DNA of 64,000 nt from Streptomyces sp. NBC_01314 (GTDB taxonomy: Bacteria; Actinomycetota; Actinomycetes; Streptomycetales; Streptomycetaceae). Shown piece by piece: positions 49,231-64,000 of the stretch (position 1 is the first letter of the stretch; each line of letters starts with the position of its first letter). The translations under genes and the position numbers were made by a program. Location of the stretch: NCBI RefSeq assembly GCF_041435215.1, contig NZ_CP108394.1:7998001-8062000 (forward strand). The letters are read 5' to 3'. The notes under the pieces are model-generated. The model was not told the origin of the DNA and did no database searches. It was given only the letters and a program-made list of their open reading frames with translations.

Positions 49231-49815
49231 CCTGCGGCTTGCTTGCTCTGGAAAGGGTCGCTGACCCGAGTCGGAGGCCCTTCCGGGCTTTCAAGGGCTT
49301 GCCGCGTCAGGCGGCGAAAAGCCCCTCGGACAGCACCGTGAACGCACTGAAAAGTCCCTGGCGCAGATGAGCGGGCAAGGCCTCTGACATGGCTGTTCGC
49401 GGCAGCCGTCAGAGCATGGAGCTGGTGGTGCTGGCGGTGGGGTTGGTCCTGGCTCGGCGGGATCACGCGGCCTCGGCGTTGGCCGTCGTACCCGTCCGCG
49501 AGGCTATTCCGCGCGAGCTGCGGTGAGCAGAAGTGCATCACGTGAAACTCTTTCAGCTGTCCGGTCAATGTCGCGATGAAGAGCCGCGGGCTGAGCACAC
49601 CGAGGCTTCCTGAACAGCGAGAAAATCGTTCCGTAGTTAACGCTTCACGCGTTGGTGCGCTGACCGTAGGATTCGCATCCAGGGGGATCAACGGGACTTG
49701 TGCGGCCACCAGGACAGTACGGACGTCTGTGGCCGCGCTTTGCGTTGGCGGCAGAGGGGACTACCGTCGACGCCGGTGTTCCGTTGGCCCAGAAGCGACA
49801 ACATCAGGGACCAGC
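49231..49815. other. Intergenic region between the island and the helicase cluster
   Basis: 585 bases without a supported gene. A 45-codon plus-strand ORF at 49389-49527 (MAVRGSRQSMELVVLAVG) has a plausible codon pattern but no recognisable relatives or ribosome-binding site. The last 250 bases are less GC-rich (ACTCTTTCAGCTG, TTCCGTAGTTAACG) and should hold the promoter of the 2255-residue helicase gene. Confidence 0.5.
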
Positions 49816-52800
49816 GTGACGAACTCGGGTGACTTCGGGGGCAGCCAGGAACTCGACCGCCTCAAGGCGATGCTTGAGAGCTGGCGCACCTCTCTGGTGG
49901 ACCTGAGCGGCCGCAACCGGCTGCTCAATTTCCGGCACACCAAGTCGGCGACACTGGAGATCTCGAACCCGTCCGCGCAGGAGCTCGTCGAACGCCTGGC
50001 CCGCGGCTGGGACTTCGCGCCGCTCCCGGACGAGGAGCCGGATGACGGCGAGGGTATGCGACCCGGCGATGTGGTCCTTGCGAAGAAGGGCGATCGCACC
50101 GACGGAATCGTCACCCAGAAGACCACCGCGCCTTCCCTTTCGCGTGCGTTGAACAGCCTGCGCGCCAAAGCGACGCAGGTCTTCAACGACTACGGCCTGT
50201 GGACCCTCAACCTCGGCGTCGGCATGCTCCGCTGGCGCGAGGACGGAGCTGAGACGGCCAGCGACGCCCCCCTGATCCTGATGCCGGTGGTCATCGAGCG
50301 CGCGCGCAACGGCCGGATCCGCCTCAGGGCGAGCGACGACGAGGAACCGCGCCTCAACCCGGCCCTGAAAGTGAAGCTGCAGCAATTCCACATCGACTGG
50401 ATGCCGGTCGCCGAGCAGGACCCTTCGGACCTGCAGGCGGTGCTCTCCGCCGCGGCTCGCGCGGTGGCGGGCAAGGCCGGATGGCAGATCTCCGACCGCG
50501 TGGTGCTCGCACTCTTCGCCTCCCACAAGGAGTCGATGTACCAGGATCTGCTCGACAACGAGGACCGGGTTCTCGGCAGCGACCTCGTACGGGCGATGGC
50601 GCTCGGCCCGAATTCCGGACTCGCCTCCGACCGTTTCGACTTCGAGGAGATCGAGCTCGACCGGATCGACGAACTGAGTCCGCCCGAGGACAGCCCGCTG
50701 GTGCTTGACGCCGACGCCTCGCAGCGGCAGGCCGTCGCCGCGGCCGTGGCCGGACAGTCGTTCGTCCTGGACGGCCCGCCCGGCACCGGCAAGAGCCAGA
50801 CGATCACGAACATGATCGCCGGCCTGATGCACGCGGGCCGCAGTGTGCTGTTTGTCAGTGAGAAGGCGGCGGCCCTCGACGTCGTCCTCGACCGGCTGAA
50901 GTCGGTCGGGCTCGACTCGTACGCCCTGGCCCTCCACAGCCACAACACCAGCCGCAAGGCGGTGGCCCAGGAGCTGGGACGGACGCTCGCGGAAGAGCCG
51001 CGCGCACCGCAACTGTCACAGCGGACCCTGGCCCAGGCCAGAGAACTGCGTCTCGCGCTCAGCGCCTACGCCGAAGCGATGAACGAGGTCCGCGACCCAC
51101 TGGGACGGACCCTGCACGACGTGCTCGGTCGGGTCGGCCGACTGTCCGAGGCGCCGGTGGCTTATCTGAGCCACAGTGACGACACCCCCACGGGGACAGG
51201 GGCGACGTTTCGCGCCGAGACGCTCAGTGACGAGGACCTGCGGCTGATCGTCGAAGCGACGAAAGTCATCTCCCACGCTTGGGAGGCGGTCGCTGACCCG
51301 TCGTTCCCCTGGCGTGACCTGCGAGCCGGCCTGGCGCATCCACGTCCTGTGCTGGAGCAGGCGCAGGCGGCGCGGGACGCGCTCACGACGGCGGTCGACC
51401 GGTACCGAGATCTTGCGCCTGGGGGAGTGCCTGTCACGGACCAGAGCGGAATCGACCGTCTGGTCGCGCTCCTGCGGCTGCTTGACGTGCGGAGTCCTGT
51501 GCCGGAAGCGTGGCTGACCACGGATGCCTTCGCCGATGAGGTGGACGACCGGGCCGACACGTTCCTGGCGGAACTGCGCAAGGTGCAGCGTACGAGCACT
51601 GCCGTCCGCGCGGCGGTGGGCGAGCGTTGGCAGGAGCTGTCCACCAGGCTGACGGCTGAGCCGGGGCAAGCCGAGAAGGCGCTCTCGGTGATGGCGCCGC
51701 GCGGCCTCGACCTCGCCGGACTCACGGAGGAGCGAGCGCGACAGCTCGCCGGGGAGTTCGGCGCGACCGCTGGTGTGCTGGAGCGGACCCTGCAGAGCCT
51801 CACCGGTGTCAGCCACCTCACCGGGCTCACGAATCCCGGCAGCCCGGAGGGATCACGTCATCTGTGTGACGTGATCGCCGTGGCCGGCACCGAACACCGC
51901 CCTCTCGAGCAGTGGCTGGTCCCTGACGGCCCCGCGCGGGCGGAGGAGGCGGCGGTCGGGGCCGCCGCCGACGCACTGAGTGACTTCTTCTCACGACGGG
52001 ACCAGGTACTCTCCGCCCAGGTCCTCGCCACGGACCACGCGGGCCCCGGGTGGTCCGAACTGCATCGGGAAGTGAGCGCCGAGCGACCGGCCAACGAGCA
52101 GGCCATCGCTGCACTGGAGCCGCCAGGCGCCGACATCGCGTCGCTGACCGGCCGCGAGGCCGCCGAGCTGGCCAAGCGGTTCGACACGCTCGCCGACGCG
52201 CTTGAGATGGCCGCCGAGCACGCCGACTCGGTGGCCGAGCGCCTCGGGTGTGACCGGCCGAAGGCTACTTCCGAGGCGGAGGGCCTGGCCACGCTGGTCG
52301 AGCTGGCCACAGCCTCGGACCGCACGCTCGAAGCATGGCTCGATCCCCGTGCACTTCCCGGTGTCCAGGCAGCCGTCGCGGAGATCTCCGCGGCCGCCCA
52401 AGACCTGGCTGCCGCGCAGGAGGCGGCGCGCGACACCTTCCTGCCCGAAGTCGTCTCCGCGCCCGAACTGCCCGGAGCGGTCCACCGGCTCCTGGAGGGT
52501 CGCCAGGGACTCGCCGGCATGCTGTCCAGCGGCATCCGGGCCGACCGGAAGCTCGTGGCCCGGCTGACACACGGCGGCTCGTGGCGCGGCGAGCTGTACG
52601 ACAAGCTGCCACTCGCCGACGCCTGGTGCGCCGCTCACCGGAAGCTGCGGTCGCTGGCCACGGCCCACGCCGAGCTGATCGGCCGCTATCGGGGCACGGC
52701 GTTGCCCGATGTTCCGGCACTGCGCAAGGCACTCGCGCACGCCGAAGCGGTCCACGCACTCGTGCCGGAAACCGTTGCCGACCCCTACCGCCGGAGTCTG

Positions 52801-55800
52801 CTCGCCACTCACCTGGCCGACGGCCGAGAGCCGCGACCCCCACTCGTCGAGCAGGGCACGGCGCTGCGCAGCGATCTCGCCACGTGGCGAAGGGATTTGG
52901 CCAGCCCGTCGTTGGCACCGCATGCGGCCGACCTCACCAAGCAGCCGCTCGGCGACGCCGCCCGCTGGCTGCGCGCCCACCTCGCCCCATTGCGACAGGC
53001 CGTCGCGCTGCTGGACACCGTGGCCTCGGTCGGTCGCCGGGACAGTGGCCCCGGTTCCGAGCACACGCTCGCCTCCGCGCGCACGGCGGTCACGGCTGCG
53101 CACGCGGCACAGAAGGAGACCGCCGCGTTCGCCGCTCAGGCCGTAACCGACCGCAGTCTTCTCGGCCCCTGGTACCGGGGCCTCGACACGCAGGCGGACG
53201 ACCTGCACGACGCCGCGCCCAACGGGGTGACGGGCTATGAGCCCGTGGGGCAGCTCCTGCGCCGCGGCCTTGACCTGACGCGACAGCAACCGGGCCCATA
53301 CACCTCGGAGCAGCAGCGCGAGTTGCTGGGCCGGTACGCCCCGGAAGGGCACCCCCACACCGAGGCCTTGCGGGCCGCCCTGGACTCCGCCGGGCTGATC
53401 GCCCGCCTCGTACCCGACACGCTCACGGAACCAGCGCGCCGGACCAGCCTCGTCGAGGTACTGGCCGACGGCCGGCCCGAACCGCGCGAACTCCTCGCGC
53501 AGACGGACCAGATCCGCCGTGACCTGGACCTCTGGCAGGAGTACACCGGGCAGCCCCACGTCGCGACGGTCGGCACAGCGCTCGCCGCCCGCCCCCTCGA
53601 ACGGGCGGCGAGCTGGCTCCGCGCGCACGTGGAGCCCTTCGAGGACGCCGCCGACCTCATCCGCTCAACCGCCCGCGTCATGGACGAGGAGACGGGCCTC
53701 ACCCTGTCGCGGGCCAGGGAAGCGGTGGCCGCCGTTGTTTCCGCCCGCGCCGCCGAGTCCTCTTTCGCGGAGAACGACGCCACGTACCGAAGCCTTCTCG
53801 GTTCCCTCTACCAGGGCACCGAGACAGACCGTGATGCGGTCCTGGATTCCCTGGACTGGGCTCAGAAGGTCCGTCGTACCGCACACGGCGGCCACTCCGC
53901 GCCCCTGCCCCGGGATGCGGCCCGGCTGATGCTGGCCGCGTCAGCCGACCCGTCCGTCGCGGCCCGCGCCGACGACTGGAGCGGTCAGCGCGAGGCACTC
54001 GCCGGTTACTTCGAGCCCGAGCGGGCTGAGGAGCTGCGACGCGAACTCGCCGAATCCCTCCCCGCGGCCCAGTCCATCCTGTCCCGCCTCGACCGCGACC
54101 CCTTCGGCCCGGAAGCGTGGACCAGCTGCGCCGACGCACTGACCCTGCTGCGCCGCTACCACCTCGACGGGTTGCCCGACCAGCTCGCACGCCGCGAGGT
54201 TTCCGCCGAGGACTTCCCAGCCGCGATGGAACGTGCGGTGCTCACCGCGTGGGTCGAGCACCAGCTCGCCACCGACGCGAGGCTGAAGCCGATGCGGGCC
54301 GTGGAGCGCGACCAGTTGGTGGAGCGCTTCCAGAGGGCGGACCAGGACCTGGTGGCGGCGGCCCACGCCGAGGTCATCGCCGCGTGCAACTCCCGCCGCC
54401 CTCGCCGGACATCTGTGGGCCAGGCCGCCGTGATCCGCCGTGAGTCCGAGAAACAGCGTCGTCACATGCCCGTACGCCACCTGCTGCAGCAGACCGGCGA
54501 CGTCGTACGGCTGGTCAAGCCCTGCTTCATGATGAGCCCGCTGACGGTCAGCCAGTTTCTGCCACCCGACTTCGAGTTCGACGTCGTCGTCTTCGACGAG
54601 GCATCCCAGGTGCTGCCCCAGGACGCGGTGAACTCCGTCTACCGGGGCAAGGCCCTCATCGTGGCGGGCGACCAGAAGCAGCTGCCGCCGACCTCGTTCT
54701 TCACCGCGACCGGGGACAGCGACGACGGCGACAATTGGGACGAGGACGCCACCGACGGCTTTGAGTCCATCCTCGACATGTGCAAGGCCAGCGGAGTCCT
54801 GCGCGGGCTGCCCCTGCGCTGGCACTACCGCAGTCGGCACGAGAACCTGATCGCCTTCAGCAACCACGACTTCTACGACAACTCCATGGTCACGTTCCCT
54901 GGCGCGCTGGAACAGGGACCGGACATCGGCGTGGAGTTCGTCAAGGCGGACGGCGTCTACGACCGCGGCGGGAGCAGCGACAACCCCCTTGAGGCCACGA
55001 AGGTGGCCCAGCGCGTCATCCACCACTTCGACACCCGCCCCGAGCACACCCTCGGCGTGGTCGCGCTGTCGAAGGCGCAGGCGGAGGCCATCGAGGAGGC
55101 GGTGCAGAAGGCGAGGGCGGCCCGCCCGGACCTCGACCACCACTTCACGGAAGGCCGGCTCGACGGTTTCTTCATCAAGAACCTCGAGACCGTCCAGGGC
55201 GACGAACGCGACGTCATCATCCTCTCCGTCGGCTACGGTCCCGACCACCGGGGCAAGCTGTTGTCGACGTTCGGCCCCATCAACAGAGAGGGCGGCTGGC
55301 GACGCCTCAACGTTGCCGTGACCCGCGCCCGGCGCCGCATGGAGGTCGTCGCCTCCTTCCACGGAGGCGATCTGCCGGACAGCGCCAACAAGAGCGTGCA
55401 GCACCTCAAGCGGTACCTGCAGTACGCCCAGCACGGTCCTGCGATCCTCCAGACAGAGGCCGCCGATCCGGACGCGGCGCCGGAGAGCCCCTTCGAAGAG
55501 GAGGTCATCGGCGTCCTGCGCGGCTGGGGATATGAGGTCCAGCCGCAGGTGGGGGTCGCCGGTTTCCGTATCGACATGGCGGTGCGGCACCCGGGCGCGC
55601 CCGGCACGTACGCGCTGGGCATCGAGTGCGACGGCGCCATGTATCACTCCTCGCGGGCGGCCCGGGACCGCGACCGGCTCAGGGAAGCGGTCCTGCGCGA
55701 CCTGGGCTGGAGGCTGCACCGAATCTGGGGCACGGACTGGTATCGGAACCGGCGGGATGCGATGGCGCGGCTGCGGGCCGCGGTGGAGCAGGCGTGTGCG

Positions 55801-56583
55801 GAGGATCCGCATGCGGTGCGAGTGGCGCCGCCCGTGGGCGTGGACCGCAGTGGTGGCGGCCTAGCCAACGGTGACAGTACGGCGGACGTCGTGGACGGCC
55901 CCCTGAGCGCGGGGGGCGGAGAACCTGTAGAAGTGGCCGGTGGTCCGGCAGTCCCGCGAGTGGAGTTCGTGACCGTCGACGCCGGCCCTGCACCCTGGAG
56001 CCGCCCCTACCAGGAGGTCGACCCTGACCTGTTGGCAGAGGTACGTGACAGGTCGAGCAGCCAGCGGGGCATGTGGGGCGCGGAGTTGCAGGACCCCGAA
56101 GCCCTCGATGTGGTGGCGGACGTGGCGCTGTGTGTGGTCGAGGTGGAAGGGCCCGTCGAGAAAGAGGTGATCTACACCCGGGTCCGTCTCGCGTGGGGCC
56201 TCGGACGAGCCGGCCAGGTGGTCCGCGACCGCATCGACCGGGCTCTTCGCCGCCTGCTCAGGCAAGGCAAGATCGTCCACATCGGTACGGCCTACGACAG
56301 GCCCGGCCACGAAACGGAGTTCGCCCGCACACCGACGGAGCGGTGCGCCCGACGAGTCGCGGAGGTCCCCGTGGCGGAGCGGCAGCTCGTGCTCAGAAAC
56401 GTGGTCGACGAAGGACCGGGCGTGCAGCGCGAGGACCTGCTGCGGGAGGCCGCTCGTTTCTTCGGATGGGCGCGACTCGGAGCCGATATCCGGGACGCGC
56501 TGACTGGCGACATCGACGCGTTGATCGCCGCCGGGGACTTGACCGAGTCGGGGGGCGGCCTGATGCCTGCGGAGGGTTCTTGA
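49816..56583 (+). CDS. Giant DUF4011 / SF1 helicase / Vsr-DUF559 nuclease / DUF3320 protein
   Basis: A 2255-residue protein. An N-terminal DUF4011 domain (LVDLSGRNRLLNFRHTKSATLEI) is followed by the first helicase block with Walker A GPPGTGKS (residues 320-327). An insertion of about 1200 residues of helical repeats lies between Walker A and Walker B (VVVFDEASQ, Asp1594-Glu1595). The later motifs are GDQKQLPPTSFF, LRWHYRSRHE, TVQGDERDVIILS and NVAVTRARRRMEV. A Vsr/DUF559-type nuclease (FRIDMAV, GIECDG, Asp1920/Glu1937) spans 1890-1990 and a DUF3320 region ends the protein. Proteins with this architecture occur in anti-phage defence islands. GTG 49816 is chosen because the conserved part starts there. 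Cytoplasmic, presumably DNA-acting. Confidence 0.9.
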   Translation: MTNSGDFGGSQELDRLKAMLESWRTSLVDLSGRNRLLNFRHTKSATLEISNPSAQELVERLARGWDFAPLPDEEPDDGEGMRPGDVVLAKKGDRTDGIVTQKTTAPSLSRALNSLRAKATQVFNDYGLWTLNLGVGMLRWREDGAETASDAPLILMPVVIERARNGRIRLRASDDEEPRLNPALKVKLQQFHIDWMPVAEQDPSDLQAVLSAAARAVAGKAGWQISDRVVLALFASHKESMYQDLLDNEDRVLGSDLVRAMALGPNSGLASDRFDFEEIELDRIDELSPPEDSPLVLDADASQRQAVAAAVAGQSFVLDGPPGTGKSQTITNMIAGLMHAGRSVLFVSEKAAALDVVLDRLKSVGLDSYALALHSHNTSRKAVAQELGRTLAEEPRAPQLSQRTLAQARELRLALSAYAEAMNEVRDPLGRTLHDVLGRVGRLSEAPVAYLSHSDDTPTGTGATFRAETLSDEDLRLIVEATKVISHAWEAVADPSFPWRDLRAGLAHPRPVLEQAQAARDALTTAVDRYRDLAPGGVPVTDQSGIDRLVALLRLLDVRSPVPEAWLTTDAFADEVDDRADTFLAELRKVQRTSTAVRAAVGERWQELSTRLTAEPGQAEKALSVMAPRGLDLAGLTEERARQLAGEFGATAGVLERTLQSLTGVSHLTGLTNPGSPEGSRHLCDVIAVAGTEHRPLEQWLVPDGPARAEEAAVGAAADALSDFFSRRDQVLSAQVLATDHAGPGWSELHREVSAERPANEQAIAALEPPGADIASLTGREAAELAKRFDTLADALEMAAEHADSVAERLGCDRPKATSEAEGLATLVELATASDRTLEAWLDPRALPGVQAAVAEISAAAQDLAAAQEAARDTFLPEVVSAPELPGAVHRLLEGRQGLAGMLSSGIRADRKLVARLTHGGSWRGELYDKLPLADAWCAAHRKLRSLATAHAELIGRYRGTALPDVPALRKALAHAEAVHALVPETVADPYRRSLLATHLADGREPRPPLVEQGTALRSDLATWRRDLASPSLAPHAADLTKQPLGDAARWLRAHLAPLRQAVALLDTVASVGRRDSGPGSEHTLASARTAVTAAHAAQKETAAFAAQAVTDRSLLGPWYRGLDTQADDLHDAAPNGVTGYEPVGQLLRRGLDLTRQQPGPYTSEQQRELLGRYAPEGHPHTEALRAALDSAGLIARLVPDTLTEPARRTSLVEVLADGRPEPRELLAQTDQIRRDLDLWQEYTGQPHVATVGTALAARPLERAASWLRAHVEPFEDAADLIRSTARVMDEETGLTLSRAREAVAAVVSARAAESSFAENDATYRSLLGSLYQGTETDRDAVLDSLDWAQKVRRTAHGGHSAPLPRDAARLMLAASADPSVAARADDWSGQREALAGYFEPERAEELRRELAESLPAAQSILSRLDRDPFGPEAWTSCADALTLLRRYHLDGLPDQLARREVSAEDFPAAMERAVLTAWVEHQLATDARLKPMRAVERDQLVERFQRADQDLVAAAHAEVIAACNSRRPRRTSVGQAAVIRRESEKQRRHMPVRHLLQQTGDVVRLVKPCFMMSPLTVSQFLPPDFEFDVVVFDEASQVLPQDAVNSVYRGKALIVAGDQKQLPPTSFFTATGDSDDGDNWDEDATDGFESILDMCKASGVLRGLPLRWHYRSRHENLIAFSNHDFYDNSMVTFPGALEQGPDIGVEFVKADGVYDRGGSSDNPLEATKVAQRVIHHFDTRPEHTLGVVALSKAQAEAIEEAVQKARAARPDLDHHFTEGRLDGFFIKNLETVQGDERDVIILSVGYGPDHRGKLLSTFGPINREGGWRRLNVAVTRARRRMEVVASFHGGDLPDSANKSVQHLKRYLQYAQHGPAILQTEAADPDAAPESPFEEEVIGVLRGWGYEVQPQVGVAGFRIDMAVRHPGAPGTYALGIECDGAMYHSSRAARDRDRLREAVLRDLGWRLHRIWGTDWYRNRRDAMARLRAAVEQACAEDPHAVRVAPPVGVDRSGGGLANGDSTADVVDGPLSAGGGEPVEVAGGPAVPRVEFVTVDAGPAPWSRPYQEVDPDLLAEVRDRSSSQRGMWGAELQDPEALDVVADVALCVVEVEGPVEKEVIYTRVRLAWGLGRAGQVVRDRIDRALRRLLRQGKIVHIGTAYDRPGHETEFARTPTERCARRVAEVPVAERQLVLRNVVDEGPGVQREDLLREAARFFGWARLGADIRDALTGDIDALIAAGDLTESGGGLMPAEGS

Positions 56584-56991
56584 TCCGCTGCGGTGGGCTC
56601 TCCTCATATCGCCCGGAGGGCCCGCTGGGCTGCCAGGATGGACAAGCGCCATCAATGGTTCGTTGACATGCGAGCGATCGAAGGTGGGACGCTCTCGTGG
56701 ACAAGGCGGTTGCTGAAGCCTTTGTGCTGACCCCGGACCCAGACCGCCGCGCACTGGCGCGGTCCTCGTCGTCGACCACGCAGAGCAGCGGCCGATGCCG
56801 GACGTCGGTAGGGGAGACCGGGTACGGCGTCCGCTGCCGTCACTGCGACCACCGGTACGACTGTCAGTACCGCCAGGTACCCTCAAACACATCGTCAACG
56901 CGGCCCGACGGGCTTCCGCTCCACCCCGGTGGAGCCTCGAAGGACATGCCCCCACCCGCACGAGTCTCTTCGTGCTGCCTGGGGGAAGTCC
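56584..56991. other. Intergenic region upstream of the DUF2075 gene
   Basis: 408 bases between two plus-strand defence-type genes. Open frames here have poor codon character. A stretch with lower GC (GACATGCGAGCGATCG, TTCGTTGAC) around 56650-56690 may hold the promoter. Nothing else recognised. Confidence 0.5.
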
Positions 56992-58878
56992 TTGCTGTTC
57001 CGCGCGTCCGCGAAAACGGTCGCCGTCATGGCACTCGACGGTTCGCTGTTTCTGCACCTCACCGACAAGTTCGTTCACATGCACGGCTATCGGCCCGGCG
57101 CCTCGGAGGTGCGTTCCTGGGAGCGCAGCATTCCCGTCCTGGCCGCCGCGCTCAACGACGCCGGCCTGGGCGACGTGGAGGTCATGCTGGAGTACGCGCT
57201 CCCGCTGAACAGCAAGCGCGCCGACGTGGTCCTCGCGGGTGTGCACCCGGTGACGGGAGAGCCGTCGTACGTCGTGGTGGAGCTGAAGCAGTGGAGCCAG
57301 GCGCTGCCCCACGAGGACGACCCCACCTTGTGTCATGTCGACGCCTATGCTCATCCGGTTCTGAACCCCATCGAGCAGGTCCGCCGTTACTGCGAATACC
57401 TCGTCAATTTCAACGGGGCGGTGGCGGAACACGGGCACCGGGTGGCGGGAGTGGCATTTCTGCACAACGCCACCGAATTCGGTGTGACCGGGCTGCGGGA
57501 GATCGAGCGTGACGGTCACGGACTGCTCTTCACAGCGGAACGCCGTGGCGCCTTCCTCGACCACCTACGTTCGAGGCTGAGCGACAAGCAGCCAGGGGCC
57601 GGGGCTGCGGACGAACTCAGCGCGGGCGCCACGGTGCCATCGAAGCAGCTCATGTCCGTGGCCGCTGAAGAGGTGCGCGAACGCACACAGTTCGTCCTCC
57701 TCGACGAGCAGCAGGTCGCGTACCGCATGGTGCTCAACGCGGTGGAGAAGGCCAAGCGCGCCGACCGCAAGGAGGTTGTCGTCGTCACGGGCGGTCCCGG
57801 CACCGGCAAGAGCGTCATTGCTCTCCAAGTGCTCGGCGAGCTCTACCGGCGCGGGGTGCCGGCGCTGCACGCCACCGGCTCGCAGTCGTTCACGAAGACG
57901 ATGAGGAAGGTCGCCGGAGCCCGCAAGCGGGAAGTCCAGGACCTGTTCAAGTACTTCAACAGCTTCATGACGGCAGAGAAGAACAGCCTGGGTGCCCTGA
58001 TCTGCGACGAGGCACACCGTATCCGGGAGACCTCGGCCAACCGCTACACGCGCGCCGCGCACCGCACCGGCCGGGCCCAGATCGACGAACTCATCGACGT
58101 CGCGTACGTGCCCGTCTTCTTCCTCGATGAGCACCAGGTCGTGCGCCCCGGAGAGATGGGCACCGTGGCGGAGATCAAGGCGGCAGCGGCGAAGCGGGGC
58201 ATCCCGTGCCAGGTCGTCCCGCTCGACAGCCAGTTCCGTTGCGGTGGCAGTGATGCCTACCTGCGTTGGGTGGTTCGCCTCCTCGGCCTGGAGCCGGGCG
58301 GGCCGGTCGTCTGGGAGCCCGATGACCGCATGCAGTTGCTGGTGGCCGACAGCCCGCAGGAGATGGAGGCCTTCCTCGAAGCCCGTCGATCCCAGGGCTA
58401 CGGTGCCCGTATGTCCGCAGGGTATTGCTGGCGCTGGTCCCCGGAACCCAAGCCCGGCGAGCCGCTCGCGCCAGACGTCGTCATCGGTGATTGGGCCCGC
58501 CCCTGGAACCTGCGCGGCGACCGCTCCGTCTCCGGCGCACCCCCGGCCGCACTCTGGGCCACCGACCCGGCGGGCTTCGGACAGGTCGGCTGCGTCTACA
58601 CCGCGCAGGGCTTCGAGTACGGCTGGTCCGGCGTCATCATCGGTCCCGACCTGGTCTGGCGCGGCGACCGCTGGATCACGGACCGCGCAGCTTCCAAGGA
58701 TCCGGTCTTCAAGAGGTCTACCCCGGACACGGACGTCGACCGCCTGATCCGCAACACCTACAAGGTCCTGCTGACCCGGGGCATGGTCGGCACGATCGTG
58801 TACTCGCCGGACGCGGAGACGCGGGAGAGACTGTGGGAGTTGGCGGGTGGAGTGGCACGGGAAGTCGTGCCGGTCTGA
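56992..58878 (+). CDS. PD-(D/E)XK nuclease fused to DUF2075 ATPase/helicase
   Basis: A 628-residue protein. Residues 60-105 show a nuclease core: RADVVLAG (Asp78) and VVVELKQW (Glu97, Lys99). The C-terminal DUF2075 motor has Walker A GGPGTGKS (267-274), Walker B LICDEAHR (339-342), VPVFFLDEHQVVRPGE, PLDSQFRC, YTAQGFEYGWSGVIIG and YKVLLTRGMVGTIVY, an SF1-like set. The start is likely TTG 56992, with GGGGGA upstream, because the family begins LLFRASAKTV; the in-frame ATG at 57029 is the alternative. Full length for the family. It follows the giant helicase in the same direction, and together they look like a defence cluster. Confidence 0.9.
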   Translation: MLFRASAKTVAVMALDGSLFLHLTDKFVHMHGYRPGASEVRSWERSIPVLAAALNDAGLGDVEVMLEYALPLNSKRADVVLAGVHPVTGEPSYVVVELKQWSQALPHEDDPTLCHVDAYAHPVLNPIEQVRRYCEYLVNFNGAVAEHGHRVAGVAFLHNATEFGVTGLREIERDGHGLLFTAERRGAFLDHLRSRLSDKQPGAGAADELSAGATVPSKQLMSVAAEEVRERTQFVLLDEQQVAYRMVLNAVEKAKRADRKEVVVVTGGPGTGKSVIALQVLGELYRRGVPALHATGSQSFTKTMRKVAGARKREVQDLFKYFNSFMTAEKNSLGALICDEAHRIRETSANRYTRAAHRTGRAQIDELIDVAYVPVFFLDEHQVVRPGEMGTVAEIKAAAAKRGIPCQVVPLDSQFRCGGSDAYLRWVVRLLGLEPGGPVVWEPDDRMQLLVADSPQEMEAFLEARRSQGYGARMSAGYCWRWSPEPKPGEPLAPDVVIGDWARPWNLRGDRSVSGAPPAALWATDPAGFGQVGCVYTAQGFEYGWSGVIIGPDLVWRGDRWITDRAASKDPVFKRSTPDTDVDRLIRNTYKVLLTRGMVGTIVYSPDAETRERLWELAGGVAREVVPV

Positions 58879-58896
58879 CGGACCGGTTGTGTGCGT

Positions 58897-59262
58897 TCAG
58901 ATGTCGTCAGAAGCCCAGCCGGGTGGATTCCGCTGGGCTTCACGCAGAAGGCGATCGACGTCGAAGCCGTGCTCGCTCAGCCGGTACCGAGCCGTGTCCA
59001 AGTGGCGCTCTTCGAAGAGATGTCGATACCACGGCAGGAGAACGAACGCCTCGACGCTCAGCTCAAGACGGCCGGCCTCCCACAGCCTGGTGAAGCCGTC
59101 CGAGGCGTTGCCGCCGCGCAGAAGCTGCTTGGCGGCCCCGACGCCGCCCAGCTCACCCAGCATCTGTACGAACCTCGTGGGGTTGTAGCCGATCTCGCGC
59201 TTGAGACGTTCGGCGCCGCTGCGCATGTCGCCGTGGAACCTGTTGTCTGCTTCGCTCGGCAT
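58897..59262 (-). CDS. Small conserved protein linked to defence genes
   Basis: A 121-residue soluble protein with the pattern IGYNPTRFVQMLGELGGVGAAKQLL ... GFTRLWEAGRLELSVEAFVL ... LFEERHLDTARYRLSEHGFDVD. I know this pattern as a widespread unassigned family that often stands next to restriction or other nuclease genes. It has no catalytic motif that I can see. It lies 58 bases downstream of the helicase-PLD gene on the same strand, so the two are probably cotranscribed, and converges with the DUF2075 gene. It may be an accessory or regulatory subunit (inference). Confidence 0.82.
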   Translation of the reverse strand: MPSEADNRFHGDMRSGAERLKREIGYNPTRFVQMLGELGGVGAAKQLLRGGNASDGFTRLWEAGRLELSVEAFVLLPWYRHLFEERHLDTARYRLSEHGFDVDRLLREAQRNPPGWASDDI

Positions 59263-59320
59263 CCGTCTCGCTCCCCTGACCTGGCACCTTTGTCGGGATG
59301 AAAGGTGCGGCGCGACCCTA

Positions 59321-62300
59321 CTACTCCTGCCGGGGAGGCAGCCATCGTGCTGCCTGCTCGCGGCTCACCTTGTTCGCATCGACGTACCAGGCACGGCGTT
59401 CGGGGTCCCAGCGTGCTTTGAGGCGCTTCTTCACCTCGTTGTTGTCCTCGAACGGGACGTCCAGGTACAGCCGGGCGGTTGGAGCGCTTTGTGGACCGCC
59501 GGGCTCTCGCAGCCGCGGATTCCAGGCGGACCTCTCCTTCCGCGCCCGCTCGATCACCTGCCCGACACGCTCACAAGCGACGGGATCGGTGAGACGCATC
59601 ATCAGGTCCGTCGGCCCAGTGTTCGCCAGCAGGTTCAGGGACCCGTGCCACAGGATCGTGCCGTCCAGGATCAGGACTTTCTCGTGCATGCGCTCCCGGA
59701 ACTCCACCACGCATCCGTACGATCGCAGTTCCTCGACCAGGCCCGAGACTCTGGATGCCGCAGCCTCCGTCGACTGCTCATCCGGGTCTCGTGTTGTCAC
59801 GGTCACCCGCACACCGTCCGCGACGCGCTTCGCGAGCGAGCTGCCCCAGGACCGCACGGGACGCGGGTCGAGGAACGGGGAGTAGAGCTCGATACTGCGC
59901 GTGGCCCGGTCGAGATCCCACCGCACCGCCTGCGGCACCTCGTCGGCAGGGAAGAATGCGGGCCGGGCCAGTTCCTCCTCCGACAGCACAGAGAGCTGCG
60001 CAGCGTCCCGGACGGGGATGAGCTGGTCCAGAGACAGCAGTTGGGCATGCGCCTCGAGATGATCGAGCATGCGTAGCGCCTCGCTGCCGATGCCGAGGTG
60101 TTCGCGAAGGTGCTCGACGTCCGCGAGGACCACCAGATGGTCCTGCGCCCTGCTGAGAGCGACGTTGAGTAGACGGCAAGTCTGGGAGGACAGACCGGTG
60201 CCTTGGTAGAAGTATCCGGGGTGCCGACCGGCCCCGGCTGTGGTGTCGAGGATGACGACCGGGCGCTGACTGCCCTGGAACCGGTGGATCGTGTCGACGA
60301 GCCCCTCGTAGGACTCGCCGAACCGGTGAGCGAGACTGCGCTGAAGTGCCTTTACCTGTGCCTTGTAGGGGGCGATCACCGCGAGCCGATCGGTGGCCCG
60401 TTCTCCGGCGGGAACGTCCTGCCACTTGCGGCCCGGCAGAACGCCCTCGTACTGCAGACCCCGTACGAGTTCGTGGACCGCTGCCTCGTGAACGGTGTTG
60501 GTCTGGTGGTCCCGTCCAGTGATGCGCTGCTTCGACGTGTCGATGAGAATCAACGGGGCGTCGACGAGCGGATTGAACGGCATGCGCGAGGAGTCCCCGC
60601 GGCCGGTCGACAGGGGAGCATCGGGGTAGGCGACGGTGTTCACCAGGTCGCAGATCGGGCTTCGCATCCGGTACTGCGTGTCGAGCGCGACGAGGCGGCT
60701 GTCCGGACGGACCGAGCCGGAGGCACCGACCAGACCTGCGGCGTGGAAGACGTCCCGCGCCGTCCACAACGCGGCGTGGTCCCGCTCGTCCGGCGTCGCC
60801 TTACGGTCACCGACTCCCTTGGTCACGGCCGGCAGCTGCCGGAAGTCACCGGCGACGACGACTCGCTTGCGCGCCAGGCCCGCCGCGTACCAGGCGGACG
60901 GCAGAGCGACCATCCCCGCCTCGTCGATGACGACGACGTCGACTCGGTCCAGCAGCTTCTTCGACTGCACGGCCTTGGCGACGGTGGTGCCGAGCACCCG
61001 GCACTTCGAGTGGACCGTGTCCTTGATTGCCCGTCGCTGTTGGTCAAGCCCGTCGATCTCCTGCTGCAACCGGTCGGCCTTGCTGACCAGGGCGGCCCGG
61101 TCGGGCACCCCCACCAGTCCGGTCTCAGCGTCGGCGAGGGTTTTTCGGATCCGTGTGAGATCCGCGGTGGCCCGGCGCAGAGCGCGATCGCCGGCGGCCA
61201 GGTTGGAGACAATCTGCTCCAACCTCGTGCGGGCGCCGGTGATGGCGGCCTGTGCGTGGTCGAGCTGTTTGCGCTTGCGCCCGCCGAAGATGCCGTCCGG
61301 ATCACCGATCTTGACCACTGTCCGGTTGTGCTCGGCGATCTCGGACCGCGCCCGCAGCTGCGCCGATATGGCCGCTTCCCGTGACGCTGTGGCGCTGTTG
61401 TGAGCCTTTTGCGCGTCGGTGAATTCGTTCCGCAGGGCGCGGGCCCTGTCATGGGCCGCTATGTGGGCTCGTGCCGCGCGCAGCGCCTCGGTGTGCTCCG
61501 TCAGTGCGGCGTCCAACTTCGCGGAGAGCCGTGCCGCGATCCGGTCCGGGTCGATCTGGTCCCCGTACGTATCGCGGAGCGAGGCGACGGCGATGTCCCC
61601 GGCCCGCTGTACGAGTCCTTCCTTGAAGGCGGACTCACCGGACAGCAGGTCGCAGACGCGCTCCAGTGCCTGATCGACCGCCACCTTCGTCGGGGCGAGG
61701 AACAGCACATTGAGCCCTTGCCGACAGGTGCCCTCGATGATGTGCCCGACGACGTCCGTCTTGCCGGTCCCGGGAGGCCCCCACAGGAAGGTGACTTCAC
61801 TGGCGAGAGCCCGCGCCACGGCCTGACGTTGTCCTGAATTGAGCTGCAGGGAAGCCCAGTTGGCCACCCACCGGGCCACCGAGCGCTCACTGTCGATCCG
61901 GGGTGTCCCCTGGCCAATCATCCATCCCGCGCTCTCCAGCCGCACCGGATGGTCCGGTTGCCCCACGGATTCCAGTCGCTCGACGAGAACCCGCAGGCCC
62001 GCCGTCTCGTCCTCCCGGATCTGCACGTTCGCCGGGGATACGCCGAGCGCGGCGGCCGTGGTGAGTCGCACCTTGCCCTCCGGTATCCGGGCGACCTCCG
62101 CCGATGCCCATTCGCCCGTCGACCGCGAGGCCCTGACCAGCACGTCCTTGCCGTCCAGCGCGGCCTGCCAGGTACGGCACTCGAAGAGGTACTCGTGCCG
62201 GCCGTCCCATGACGAGACCCGGCGTCCCTTCGAAAGGGACACCTTCACGCCGTCCTTGGCATCGTTGCGCAACTCGGCGGCGATCTCCAGCCGGACAGCG

Positions 62301-62347
62301 GTCAGCAGTTCATTGACCGGATGTGGACGCGTCGTTCCCTCTGCCAT
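59321..62347 (-). CDS. SF1 helicase / phospholipase-D nuclease / DUF5710 fusion
   Basis: A 1008-residue protein. ATG 62347 has GGGGGTGG upstream. An N-terminal OB-like part is followed by a UPF1/Dna2-type helicase with Walker A GPPGTGKT (190-197), a coiled-coil insertion, Walker B VVVIDEAG (Asp475), DFRQLPAV, LDTQYRMRSPI, TIHRFQGSQRPVVILD and LNVALSRAQDHLVVL. Next is a phospholipase-D-type nuclease with one HKD motif (His888, Lys890, Asp895, then GSLN), which would need to dimerise. The last 50 residues are DUF5710 (RLYLDVPFEDNNEVKKRLKARWDPERRAWYV), a small module often attached to nucleic-acid enzymes. Probable nucleic-acid-processing defence protein. Confidence 0.92.
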   Translation of the reverse strand: MAEGTTRPHPVNELLTAVRLEIAAELRNDAKDGVKVSLSKGRRVSSWDGRHEYLFECRTWQAALDGKDVLVRASRSTGEWASAEVARIPEGKVRLTTAAALGVSPANVQIREDETAGLRVLVERLESVGQPDHPVRLESAGWMIGQGTPRIDSERSVARWVANWASLQLNSGQRQAVARALASEVTFLWGPPGTGKTDVVGHIIEGTCRQGLNVLFLAPTKVAVDQALERVCDLLSGESAFKEGLVQRAGDIAVASLRDTYGDQIDPDRIAARLSAKLDAALTEHTEALRAARAHIAAHDRARALRNEFTDAQKAHNSATASREAAISAQLRARSEIAEHNRTVVKIGDPDGIFGGRKRKQLDHAQAAITGARTRLEQIVSNLAAGDRALRRATADLTRIRKTLADAETGLVGVPDRAALVSKADRLQQEIDGLDQQRRAIKDTVHSKCRVLGTTVAKAVQSKKLLDRVDVVVIDEAGMVALPSAWYAAGLARKRVVVAGDFRQLPAVTKGVGDRKATPDERDHAALWTARDVFHAAGLVGASGSVRPDSRLVALDTQYRMRSPICDLVNTVAYPDAPLSTGRGDSSRMPFNPLVDAPLILIDTSKQRITGRDHQTNTVHEAAVHELVRGLQYEGVLPGRKWQDVPAGERATDRLAVIAPYKAQVKALQRSLAHRFGESYEGLVDTIHRFQGSQRPVVILDTTAGAGRHPGYFYQGTGLSSQTCRLLNVALSRAQDHLVVLADVEHLREHLGIGSEALRMLDHLEAHAQLLSLDQLIPVRDAAQLSVLSEEELARPAFFPADEVPQAVRWDLDRATRSIELYSPFLDPRPVRSWGSSLAKRVADGVRVTVTTRDPDEQSTEAAASRVSGLVEELRSYGCVVEFRERMHEKVLILDGTILWHGSLNLLANTGPTDLMMRLTDPVACERVGQVIERARKERSAWNPRLREPGGPQSAPTARLYLDVPFEDNNEVKKRLKARWDPERRAWYVDANKVSREQAARWLPPRQE

Positions 62348-62646
62348 GGAACCACCCCCGAGGTGATCGGCCGAACGTCGATGTCGTGCGCGGAACGACG
62401 GGACCTTACGCATGGCATGTGATGTCGGGAATGGATCCGGCCAGCGGCACAATTTACCTTGCGGAGGAGCGCTCCTGTGCTGTGAATCGCTCTGCCGCGA
62501 ACTGAGCGACCGGCGCTGGTGGGACACTTCGAGGCGGGGCTCTTGAGCACGGCTGGCGGCACCACGGTTGAGCTCACCGGCAGTGCGGACCCCTCGGAGC
62601 TGCGGAACGAGTGGTCCCTGACAGATACGTATGCCGAAGTGCGGCG
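62348..62646. promoter_or_regulatory. Divergent promoter region
   Basis: 299 bases between the helicase-PLD gene (minus) and the large unknown gene (plus). The stretch around 62385-62460 is less GC-rich (TCGTGCGCGGAACGACG, CAATTTACCTTGCGG) and should contain both promoters. No clear operator palindrome was found. Confidence 0.45.
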
Positions 62647-64000
62647 ATGTCCCATAACATCCATGCCATCGCCCGCCACAGGGCGCATACATGGAGCAGG
62701 TGGGGGGCCACCCAATTGGCTGTCGATTTCGATGACGAACCCGATCTCGAAGAACTACGTCGCCGAGAAATGGCGCAGCGTGCACGAAGGCGTCTGGCTC
62801 GGGAACGAGGTGAGATCCCCGTACTGAGTGCGCGGTTCAGGAAGATTTCCTCTTCTTCTGAGAACGACGCGACGCCCTCACCGCAGTCCGAGCCGGTCAC
62901 GCTGTCGGCACGCGCCGACCAGGCACTGAGGCGCATAGCGGAAGAGGCGGGCGACCCGGATTCTTTCGTGGAGGTGCTGGCGCGGGCCGGAGCGGAGGAA
63001 GATCCCCATGCTGTGGTCGTGGAGGCCGTTCGTGAGCATCTTCTGAACTGCTCTCCTCTGGTGGCGCTGCGCCATCTCGTCGAACTGACCCATGGCGGAC
63101 TGCCCATGCTCGCCGATGACGAGCTCTCCCGAGGTGAAGCCCTGCTGGCGGAGCGGCTTCCGGCTCCTTCCGCGTCGCCCCTTCACCCGGACGCGTGGCA
63201 GATACATGTGGAGGCTGTGGAAGCGTCCGGCCGGGGTGTGCTTTCGGGCGAGGCATGGCATCGGCTGGCCGGGACGCTGCCGTTGCCGGTGGTCGACGAT
63301 CTCATCGATGCCGGAACCTTGGACCGGCGAGTCCTTCCGGCGCTGCGAGGGCTGGAGGATCGCGAGGCTTATCTCGTCGCGCGACTGGAGCCCGAGGACT
63401 TGACCGAGGCCGAGCTGTCGGTGCTGGGGTGGCAGGACGAAGCGAGAAGAAGGGCCCTCCACAGAGGAGAGGCGATTGACGCGCTCGACGGTTGCCACGA
63501 CCGATGGAGCCTGCGCTCGGCGCTGCTCGGCGGAGAGACCGCCGGACTCGATTCTGTCACCAACACGCTGGCGCCCGGGCAGAGCCTTCCGTCGGCTCTC
63601 GCGCAGTTCCTGCACTCTCTGCAGTCGATCCGGCGAGGTGGCGCCGTGGACCGAGAACTGGGCAACGACCGCGGCCTGTTTGCTGTACTGGAGGACTGGC
63701 TGCCCGCAGGTCGTCTCGTTGCCGGGCGTGCGGCATTCCACTACTGGGCGGGCACAAGGCGTCTCTACCGGCTGCTGGACGAGCTCCACTGGGCCATGGC
63801 CGTCGAGCCGGAGACGGTTCCGGACACACTGCGGGGAGTTGTGCAACAGGCAAGTGCCCTGCGCAACGAGCAGGGAGGGGCGACCGCAGGGCGTGCGGAT
63901 CGGGAAGCGCGCGTGGTACTTGCCTACGTGTACTTCCTGACAGCCCGCCCAGGCGAGCGAGACCGGCTCGATCACGCCGTCGGGCTGTTGGAGGAGCTGA
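62647..64000 (+). CDS. Large unknown protein, runs off the right edge
   Basis: From ATG 62647 an uninterrupted frame of at least 451 codons continues past the window end. It begins MSHNIHAIARHRAHTWSRW, then GATQLAVDFDDEPDLEELRRREMAQRARR, a short Ser/Glu-rich linker, and a long predicted alpha-helical region (ADQALRRIAEEAGDPDSFVEVLARAG, AVREHLLNCSPLVALRHLVELTHGG, LPALRGLEDREAYLVARLEPEDL). Third codon positions are strongly G/C, as in real genes here, while the minus-strand open frames over the same bases are not. No known domain is recognised. It is divergent from the helicase-PLD gene and may be part of the same system. Confidence 0.8.
   Translation, partial: MSHNIHAIARHRAHTWSRWGATQLAVDFDDEPDLEELRRREMAQRARRRLARERGEIPVLSARFRKISSSSENDATPSPQSEPVTLSARADQALRRIAEEAGDPDSFVEVLARAGAEEDPHAVVVEAVREHLLNCSPLVALRHLVELTHGGLPMLADDELSRGEALLAERLPAPSASPLHPDAWQIHVEAVEASGRGVLSGEAWHRLAGTLPLPVVDDLIDAGTLDRRVLPALRGLEDREAYLVARLEPEDLTEAELSVLGWQDEARRRALHRGEAIDALDGCHDRWSLRSALLGGETAGLDSVTNTLAPGQSLPSALAQFLHSLQSIRRGGAVDRELGNDRGLFAVLEDWLPAGRLVAGRAAFHYWAGTRRLYRLLDELHWAMAVEPETVPDTLRGVVQQASALRNEQGGATAGRADREARVVLAYVYFLTARPGERDRLDHAVGLLEEL

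Follow-up and report, generated by a model that had tools for sequence, protein, structure and literature searches.

A probable left flank of a Type 2 BREX (Pgl) locus in Streptomyces, with an interchangeable add-on slot and a candidate chaperone cassette

Phage growth limitation (Pgl), or Type 2 bacteriophage exclusion (BREX), is a long-studied phage defence for which the published models of mechanism differ. In a study of Streptomyces coelicolor, pglWX and pglYZ are described as two operons lying 6 kb apart (PMC4365076). Also in print are auxiliary or backup nucleases beside BREX cores, including GmrSD and PD-(D/E)XK types (PMC12839542), and conflict systems that bear Hsp70 with partner proteins, namely CoCoNuTs (PMC11090510) and systems centred on GTPases that include HSP70, GrpE and DnaJ (PMC7159879). 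Here, we analyzed 64,000 nucleotides from Streptomyces sp. NBC_01314 (positions 7,998,001-8,062,000 on the 11.33 Mb contig NZ_CP108394.1; this whole stretch is called the window), together with sequence read beyond the window end. The last part of the window had drawn attention in an earlier note, made from the sequence alone, as a row of genes each joining an ATP-driven motor to a nuclease. We consider it probable, at roughly 0.7, that this region flanks a Type 2 BREX (Pgl) phage-defence locus on its left side, with an interchangeable add-on slot and a dedicated chaperone cassette. Conservation, linkage with PglX and a control with random stretches all place the underlying observation beyond chance.

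The Pgl locus and the genes at its left

The Pgl locus continues past the window end, so that the window genes form its left flank. All of the Type 2 BREX components PglW, PglX, PglY, PglZ, BrxD and BrxHI were identified, at the following positions (window coordinates, all past the window end):

67785-72554, PglW (PADLOC 1547 bits)
72551-76174, PglX (PADLOC 1683 bits)
97760-101641, PglY (BrxC; PADLOC 1463 bits)
101638-104568, PglZ (PADLOC 886 bits; PF08665 above cut-off)
109762-111111, BrxD (PADLOC 687 bits)
111108-113309, BrxHI (PADLOC 1066 bits)

PglW combines a NERD nuclease with kinases, and PglX is a methyltransferase. The same two runs, pglWX and pglYZ, are those of S. coelicolor (PMC4365076), and the further Type 2 BREX components BrxD and BrxHI are both present in this genome. 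In comparison with the S. coelicolor locus, the two runs are separated here by about 21.6 kb, and DUF4011, DUF2075, SF1-PLD and Hsp70-cassette genes are added at the left. A protein with a type VII secretion system (T7SS) signal and RHS features, carrying a Scabin-like C-terminal domain, is encoded between pglWX and pglYZ (L004:10608-15407, minus strand; 90608-95407 in the window frame), and a gene resembling GmrSD-N type IV restriction lies between PglZ and BrxD (L005:7757-9574, minus strand).

The genes of the left flank that lie wholly within the window are listed below:

49816-56583, plus strand, P0001, a giant of about 2255 amino acids (aa) with DUF4011, a superfamily 1 (SF1) helicase (AAA_11/AAA_12), an MTES_1575 nuclease and DUF3320 (Pfam, NCBIfam, PADLOC PDC-S37)
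56929-58878, plus strand, P0002, 649 aa, a PD-(D/E)XK-like N-terminus (ELK motif) followed by an SLFN-g3/DUF2075 helicase (PF09848, 306 bits), near the slot edge
58897-59262, minus strand, P0003, a conserved 121-aa protein, in the slot (6 of 199 genomes of the genus, its own included)
59321-62347, minus strand, P0004, an SF1 helicase with a phospholipase D (PLD)-type nuclease and DUF5710, 1009 aa by the chosen start, in the slot (Pfam)

Pfam matches, open reading frames and relatives confirmed that these three motor-nuclease genes, the 121-residue gene and a further gene near 62647 are real, as the earlier note had supposed, and that motor and nuclease motifs are visible in them: Walker A and the nuclease motifs are conserved in the aligned relatives. 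The D, ELK and Walker A motifs of P0002 were retained in all 23 aligned rows, paralogues among them, and in P0004 the HEK motif was found in seven of seven rows and GSLN in six, with GSKN in L096. The proposal of three different nuclease folds has to be reduced to two, because MTES_1575 and the ELK domain of P0002 both belong to the superfamily PD-(D/E)XK. The longest open reading frame of P0001 starts at 49576, upstream of the start at 49816 that had been assumed. P0001 and P0004 share helicase-nuclease parts with the single-gene defences Mokosh (MkoC), Hhe and ProA, as judged by family models only; the matches are partial or below curated cut-off. The NCBIfam models for ProA and Hhe gave 1167 and 807 bits on P0001 (curated cut-offs 1500 and 2000), and its PADLOC match was PDC-S37. 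Mokosh type II (MkoC) is defined by an SF1 helicase with a C-terminal PLD. P0004 has the SF1 helicase plus PLD architecture, and PADLOC MkoC, a model without curated cut-off, matched it with 139 bits over three stretches.

The association with Pgl was measured in 199 genomes of the genus, its own included, with a locus counted as linked when it lay within 30 kb of PglX. For this survey, 54 of 60 PglX rows were kept (three weak rows and three further fragments were dropped), as were 53 P0002 rows (those below 49% identity, mostly the 40% paralogue, were dropped) and 35 PglZ rows (those covering just the domain end were dropped); in two genomes one of two P0005 rows was dropped, and of 12 DUF5710 matches, the five with frames between 99 and 325 aa were excluded from the P0004 count. 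Genes in retrieved loci were predicted by a codon-usage caller and not taken from annotation. Of the 53 P0002 loci, 20 (that of the window included) were linked to PglX by this measure, against 0.27 expected by chance (calculated with genomes of 8.5 Mb), and the co-occurrence of DUF2075 with PglX was also significant at the genome level (p = 8e-8). At two loci (L229 and L232), P0002 sits inside the Pgl gene run, between PglX and a gene of 1296-1297 aa that precedes PglZ. Relatives of P0001 were found in two Pgl loci. One (L101, 87% identity) adjoins P0002; the other (L097, 66%) lies between PglW and PglX of a more distant Pgl locus (PglW 35%, PglX 49%).

A variable slot between P0002 and PglW

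Comparison of six loci with the window by blastn, supplemented with gene maps, revealed a stretch of changing content between P0002 and PglW:

from the P0002 3' end (58847-58955) to upstream of PglW (67599-67689, past the window end), no strand, variable slot

On the PglW side, the match begins at 67599 in one locus and at 67669-67689 in five. Towards P0002, the match stops at 58847-58955 in L100, L103 and L110, and in L012 it extends through P0003 to 59302; the pieces from L091 and L092 stop short of P0002, and their gene order was taken from gene maps. P0003, P0004 and the Hsp70 cassette described below make up the slot content in the window. The slot is empty in L110, in which the match to the window runs to 58955 and resumes at 67689 after nine bases. 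A P0002 paralogue occupies the slot in L103, the paralogue together with P0004 in L091 and L092, and two unlabelled genes beside the paralogue in L226. The slot protein of L100 and L101 matches a PADLOC type IV restriction model, with an HNH domain in L100. The slot of L012 contains P0003 and a 64-column piece matching P0004 (L012:11978-12037), and outside it lies a 108-column match to the end of P0001 (L012:14569-14676); neither of the two genes was found at this locus, so that the pieces are a sign of past loss. The slot beside PglW takes up interchangeable genes, which are mostly ATP-driven or plain nucleases.

Full-length relatives of P0004 (frames above 1000 aa) were present in six other genomes of the genus, and all six were divergent from a large gene. 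The partner was PglW in two cases (L091, L092), a Ser/Thr-kinase helicase in three (L093-L095; the kinase was assigned by Pfam in L093 and by 68% matches in L094 and L095) and a 2276-aa protein with a partial, weak match in one (L096).

Homologs of P0003 occurred in five of the 198 other genomes, and 453 database relatives were found at E <= 0.001. No match to it was detected in Pfam, PADLOC, NCBIfam or PDB, and its predicted structure had a mean predicted local distance difference test (pLDDT) score of 58. A plasmid search with P0003 found relatives in 12 records; those with 34-40% identity (matches H2-H12) came from plasmid records of Rhizobium, Shinella, Acinetobacter and Vibrio. A P0003 relative also lies near an Hsp70 cassette in L014 and L151, which are probably the same contig, and in S. 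griseoluteus the relatives of P0003 and P0005 bear neighbouring locus tags.

With regard to the literature, the auxiliary nucleases of PMC12839542 share with this locus the concept of add-ons to a BREX core, and its main text does not mention DUF2075, DUF4011, Hsp70 or DUF5710. No report of the slot between P0002 and PglW was found in the literature searched, which excluded supplements and mostly did not cover subscription papers.

The Hsp70 cassette and its neighbours

The gene near 62647 had been noted as a large unknown gene; it is real, but it proved to open a cassette that continues beyond the window:

62611-64476, plus strand, crossing the window end, P0005, first gene of the cassette
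64500-65252, past the window end, P0006, GrpE-like
65249-67306, past the window end, P0007, Hsp70 (PF00012, 207 bits)

The start of P0005 is uncertain (62611-62770), because a near-identical database protein begins differently. P0005, P0006 and Hsp70 were co-located at all 13 other loci of the genus. A scan of named genomes yielded 50 cassette loci, mostly from Streptomyces, with others from Actinomadura, Nocardiopsis and Actinacidiphila; P0005 and Hsp70 were present at all 50, and P0006 was recognised at 43. Ten of these loci probably coincide with loci collected earlier, five of which gave the proteins used as labels. A Druantia-IV-like, YprA/SNF2 or type I restriction-modification (RM) gene lay no more than three genes from the cassette at 36 of the 50 loci (18, 12 and 6, respectively), and at 31 of 45 when the five label-giving loci were excluded. 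By comparison, two of 32 random 20-kb stretches contained any labelled gene, both by matches of 33-36%.

A quick Hsp70 tree of 49 of the 50 loci (with long-branch warnings for L153, L163 and L129) was used to follow these neighbours. Its classes (Druantia-IV-like 18, YprA/SNF2 11, type I RM 7, none 13 and Pgl 1) differ slightly from the counts above because they were assigned by hand and the others by script. All 18 Druantia-IV-like rows fell into one group. The type I RM label changes at least three times on the tree and the YprA/SNF2 label at least four times, which implies that the cassette has changed partners several times. The window Hsp70 clusters with four rows, three of them labelled type I RM and one YprA/SNF2. 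In the Druantia-IV-like loci, DruE, P0005 and Hsp70 are on the same strand in 18 of 18 cases and the Hsp70 terminates before the NYN domain; together with the single tree group, this suggests a fixed partnership.

The nucleotide-binding motifs of Hsp70 are kept in P0007, and its glycine-rich motifs are invariant in 14 aligned rows. An NYN RNase domain scored above the Pfam cut-off in five of five Hsp70 relatives checked, and all three NYN motifs were found in 23 of 49 relatives (22 with a first, narrower pattern); three more were partial, and L160 ends at a contig end. The catalytic acidic residues are degenerate in P0007 and four near relatives, one of which (L037) is still above the Pfam cut-off; PF11977 was not reported for P0007 at E <= 0.01. 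In hhalign comparisons, P0006 aligned with GrpE at a probability of 79% (score 41.5; the best of 60 column shuffles reached 16.6), and an unrelated profile reached 0.1% on P0006. The C-terminal segment of P0005 aligned with the J domain at 71% (score 27.3; best shuffle 13.3), after exclusion of row L177, which is not a J domain. The predicted structure of P0005 had a mean pLDDT of 77.5.

A plasmid search with P0005 found no relatives. The same search with P0007 returned 232 records, none covering 80% of the protein, and the ten listed resemble ordinary Hsp70s. At one Druantia-IV-like locus with the Hsp70 cassette (L135), a P0002 relative (89%) and a paralogue (36%) come next. Five of the 50 loci (L156-L159 and L161) have a pair of GTPase genes after the cassette, which recalls the published GTPase-HSP70 systems.

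Compared with CoCoNuTs and the GTPase-centred systems, there is no GTPase among the cassette genes of the window, and the neighbours of the cassette are Druantia-IV-like, YprA/SNF2, type I RM or Pgl genes. The fusion of NYN with Hsp70 also distinguishes the cassette, and the term 'NYN' does not occur in the main text of either report (PMC11090510, PMC7159879). Genes for YprA-like helicases, SNF2-like helicases and methyltransferases, which are known from ARMADA and other YprA-family systems (PMC12458937), are also found beside several Hsp70 cassettes; the main text of that report contains neither 'DnaK' nor 'NYN', and the count was zero for Hsp70 and chaperone as well. Within the same literature coverage as above, no report described the cassette as a neighbour of Druantia, type I RM or Pgl, and nothing joined PglW and PglX with Hsp70 and a helicase, or Hsp70 with NYN and antiphage activity.

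Competing explanations and biological meaning

Several results weigh against the reading of the region as a Pgl flank with an add-on slot and a dedicated chaperone cassette. First, the genome-level association with PglX was not significant for DUF5710 (p = 0.14), DUF4011 (0.58) or P0005 (1). In the genus, 33 of the 53 DUF2075 loci and 18 of the 22 DUF4011 loci, some of them on short contigs, lacked a PglX within 30 kb. Labelled Pgl genes were absent from all nine P0002 loci sampled from these 33 and from all 11 P0002 loci outside the genus, four of which are on contigs below 9 kb; P0002 is therefore rejected as an obligate part of Pgl. Second, this genome is the only one in which the cassette was found close to PglX (one of 14 loci), so that its tie to Pgl is drawn from a single case, and 14 of the 50 cassette loci had no labelled neighbour. 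Third, the match of P0005 to the J domain drops to 27% when the full length is used and to 6% with a thinner alignment, the HPD motif is absent from the J-like segment in all 49 rows, and a structure search with the P0005 model gave no solved fold at E <= 0.001. Because neither Pfam nor PDB recognises P0006 as GrpE or finds a J domain in P0005, the names GrpE-like and J-like serve as leads only.

Another possibility is that this is a plain defence island, in which independent genes have accumulated where insertion is tolerated, the slot serving as a docking site that implies no cooperation. P0002, the DUF4011 gene and P0004 are all found without Pgl, the window combination recurs in no other of the 199 genomes, and the remnants in L012 match genes that are absent there. 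We regard this as a serious contender that falls short of even odds, as it has to contend with the excess of P0002 near PglX, with the position of P0002 inside the Pgl gene run and with the divergent arrangement of P0004 in all six other copies. The earlier note had left a choice between several stacked single-gene defences and one multi-part system. Each holds in part. The former agrees with the DUF4011 and DUF2075 loci that lack PglX and with the DUF2075 loci outside the genus, none of which shows a Pgl gene; the latter is borne out in that DUF2075 recurs by PglX far more often than expected and that a changing nuclease slot adjoins PglW, but the genes flank Pgl and do not make up a system of their own.

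For the cassette in particular, it is conceivable, if rather doubtful, that chaperone and RNase form an independent defence or stress system that merely lies near other systems. The loci without labelled neighbour, the intact NYN motifs in nearly half of the relatives and the repeated changes of the type I RM and YprA/SNF2 labels would fit this explanation; the 18 co-stranded Druantia-IV-like loci, which form one Hsp70 group without NYN, point instead to a fixed partnership. That the window genes, contiguous as they are, constitute one fixed new multi-part system is very improbable and is rejected, because the whole set, whose joint recurrence the earlier note had proposed as its sign, was found in none of the other 198 genomes, with subsets in L091, L092, L012 and L110 and pairs in few other genomes (DUF2075 with helicase-PLD in two, DUF2075 with the 121-residue gene in one, the 121-residue with the 62647 gene in one).

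Gene content, domains, motifs, recurrence and slot edges were observed directly, and from the sequences we infer how the parts of a Pgl locus with an add-on slot might work together. PglW and PglX would sense and mark DNA, PglZ and the helicases would restrict, and the slot genes may serve as backup effectors against incoming nucleic acid. As a dedicated chaperone machine, the P0005-P0006-Hsp70 cassette would load, silence or release the very large neighbouring defence proteins, with NYN as an RNase arm in many relatives, probably not in the window copy. We suggest tentatively, at close to but below an even chance, that this Hsp70 machine (J-like, GrpE-like and Hsp70, with or without NYN RNase) is a portable subunit common to DNA-defence systems that differ in other respects, namely Druantia-IV-like, YprA/SNF2, type I RM and, in this genome, Pgl; the machine would keep giant defence helicases or kinases inactive until infection occurs and would provide RNA cleavage as a last line.

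If the slot is indeed interchangeable, the diversification of Pgl could be tested by means of natural slot variants, the empty one included. A portable chaperone cassette would be new if functional. If the cassette is needed by the neighbouring systems, large restriction machines would have chaperones of their own and DNA defence would be tied to the state of protein folding; in many relatives, the Hsp70 cassette would also link DNA defence to RNA cleavage.

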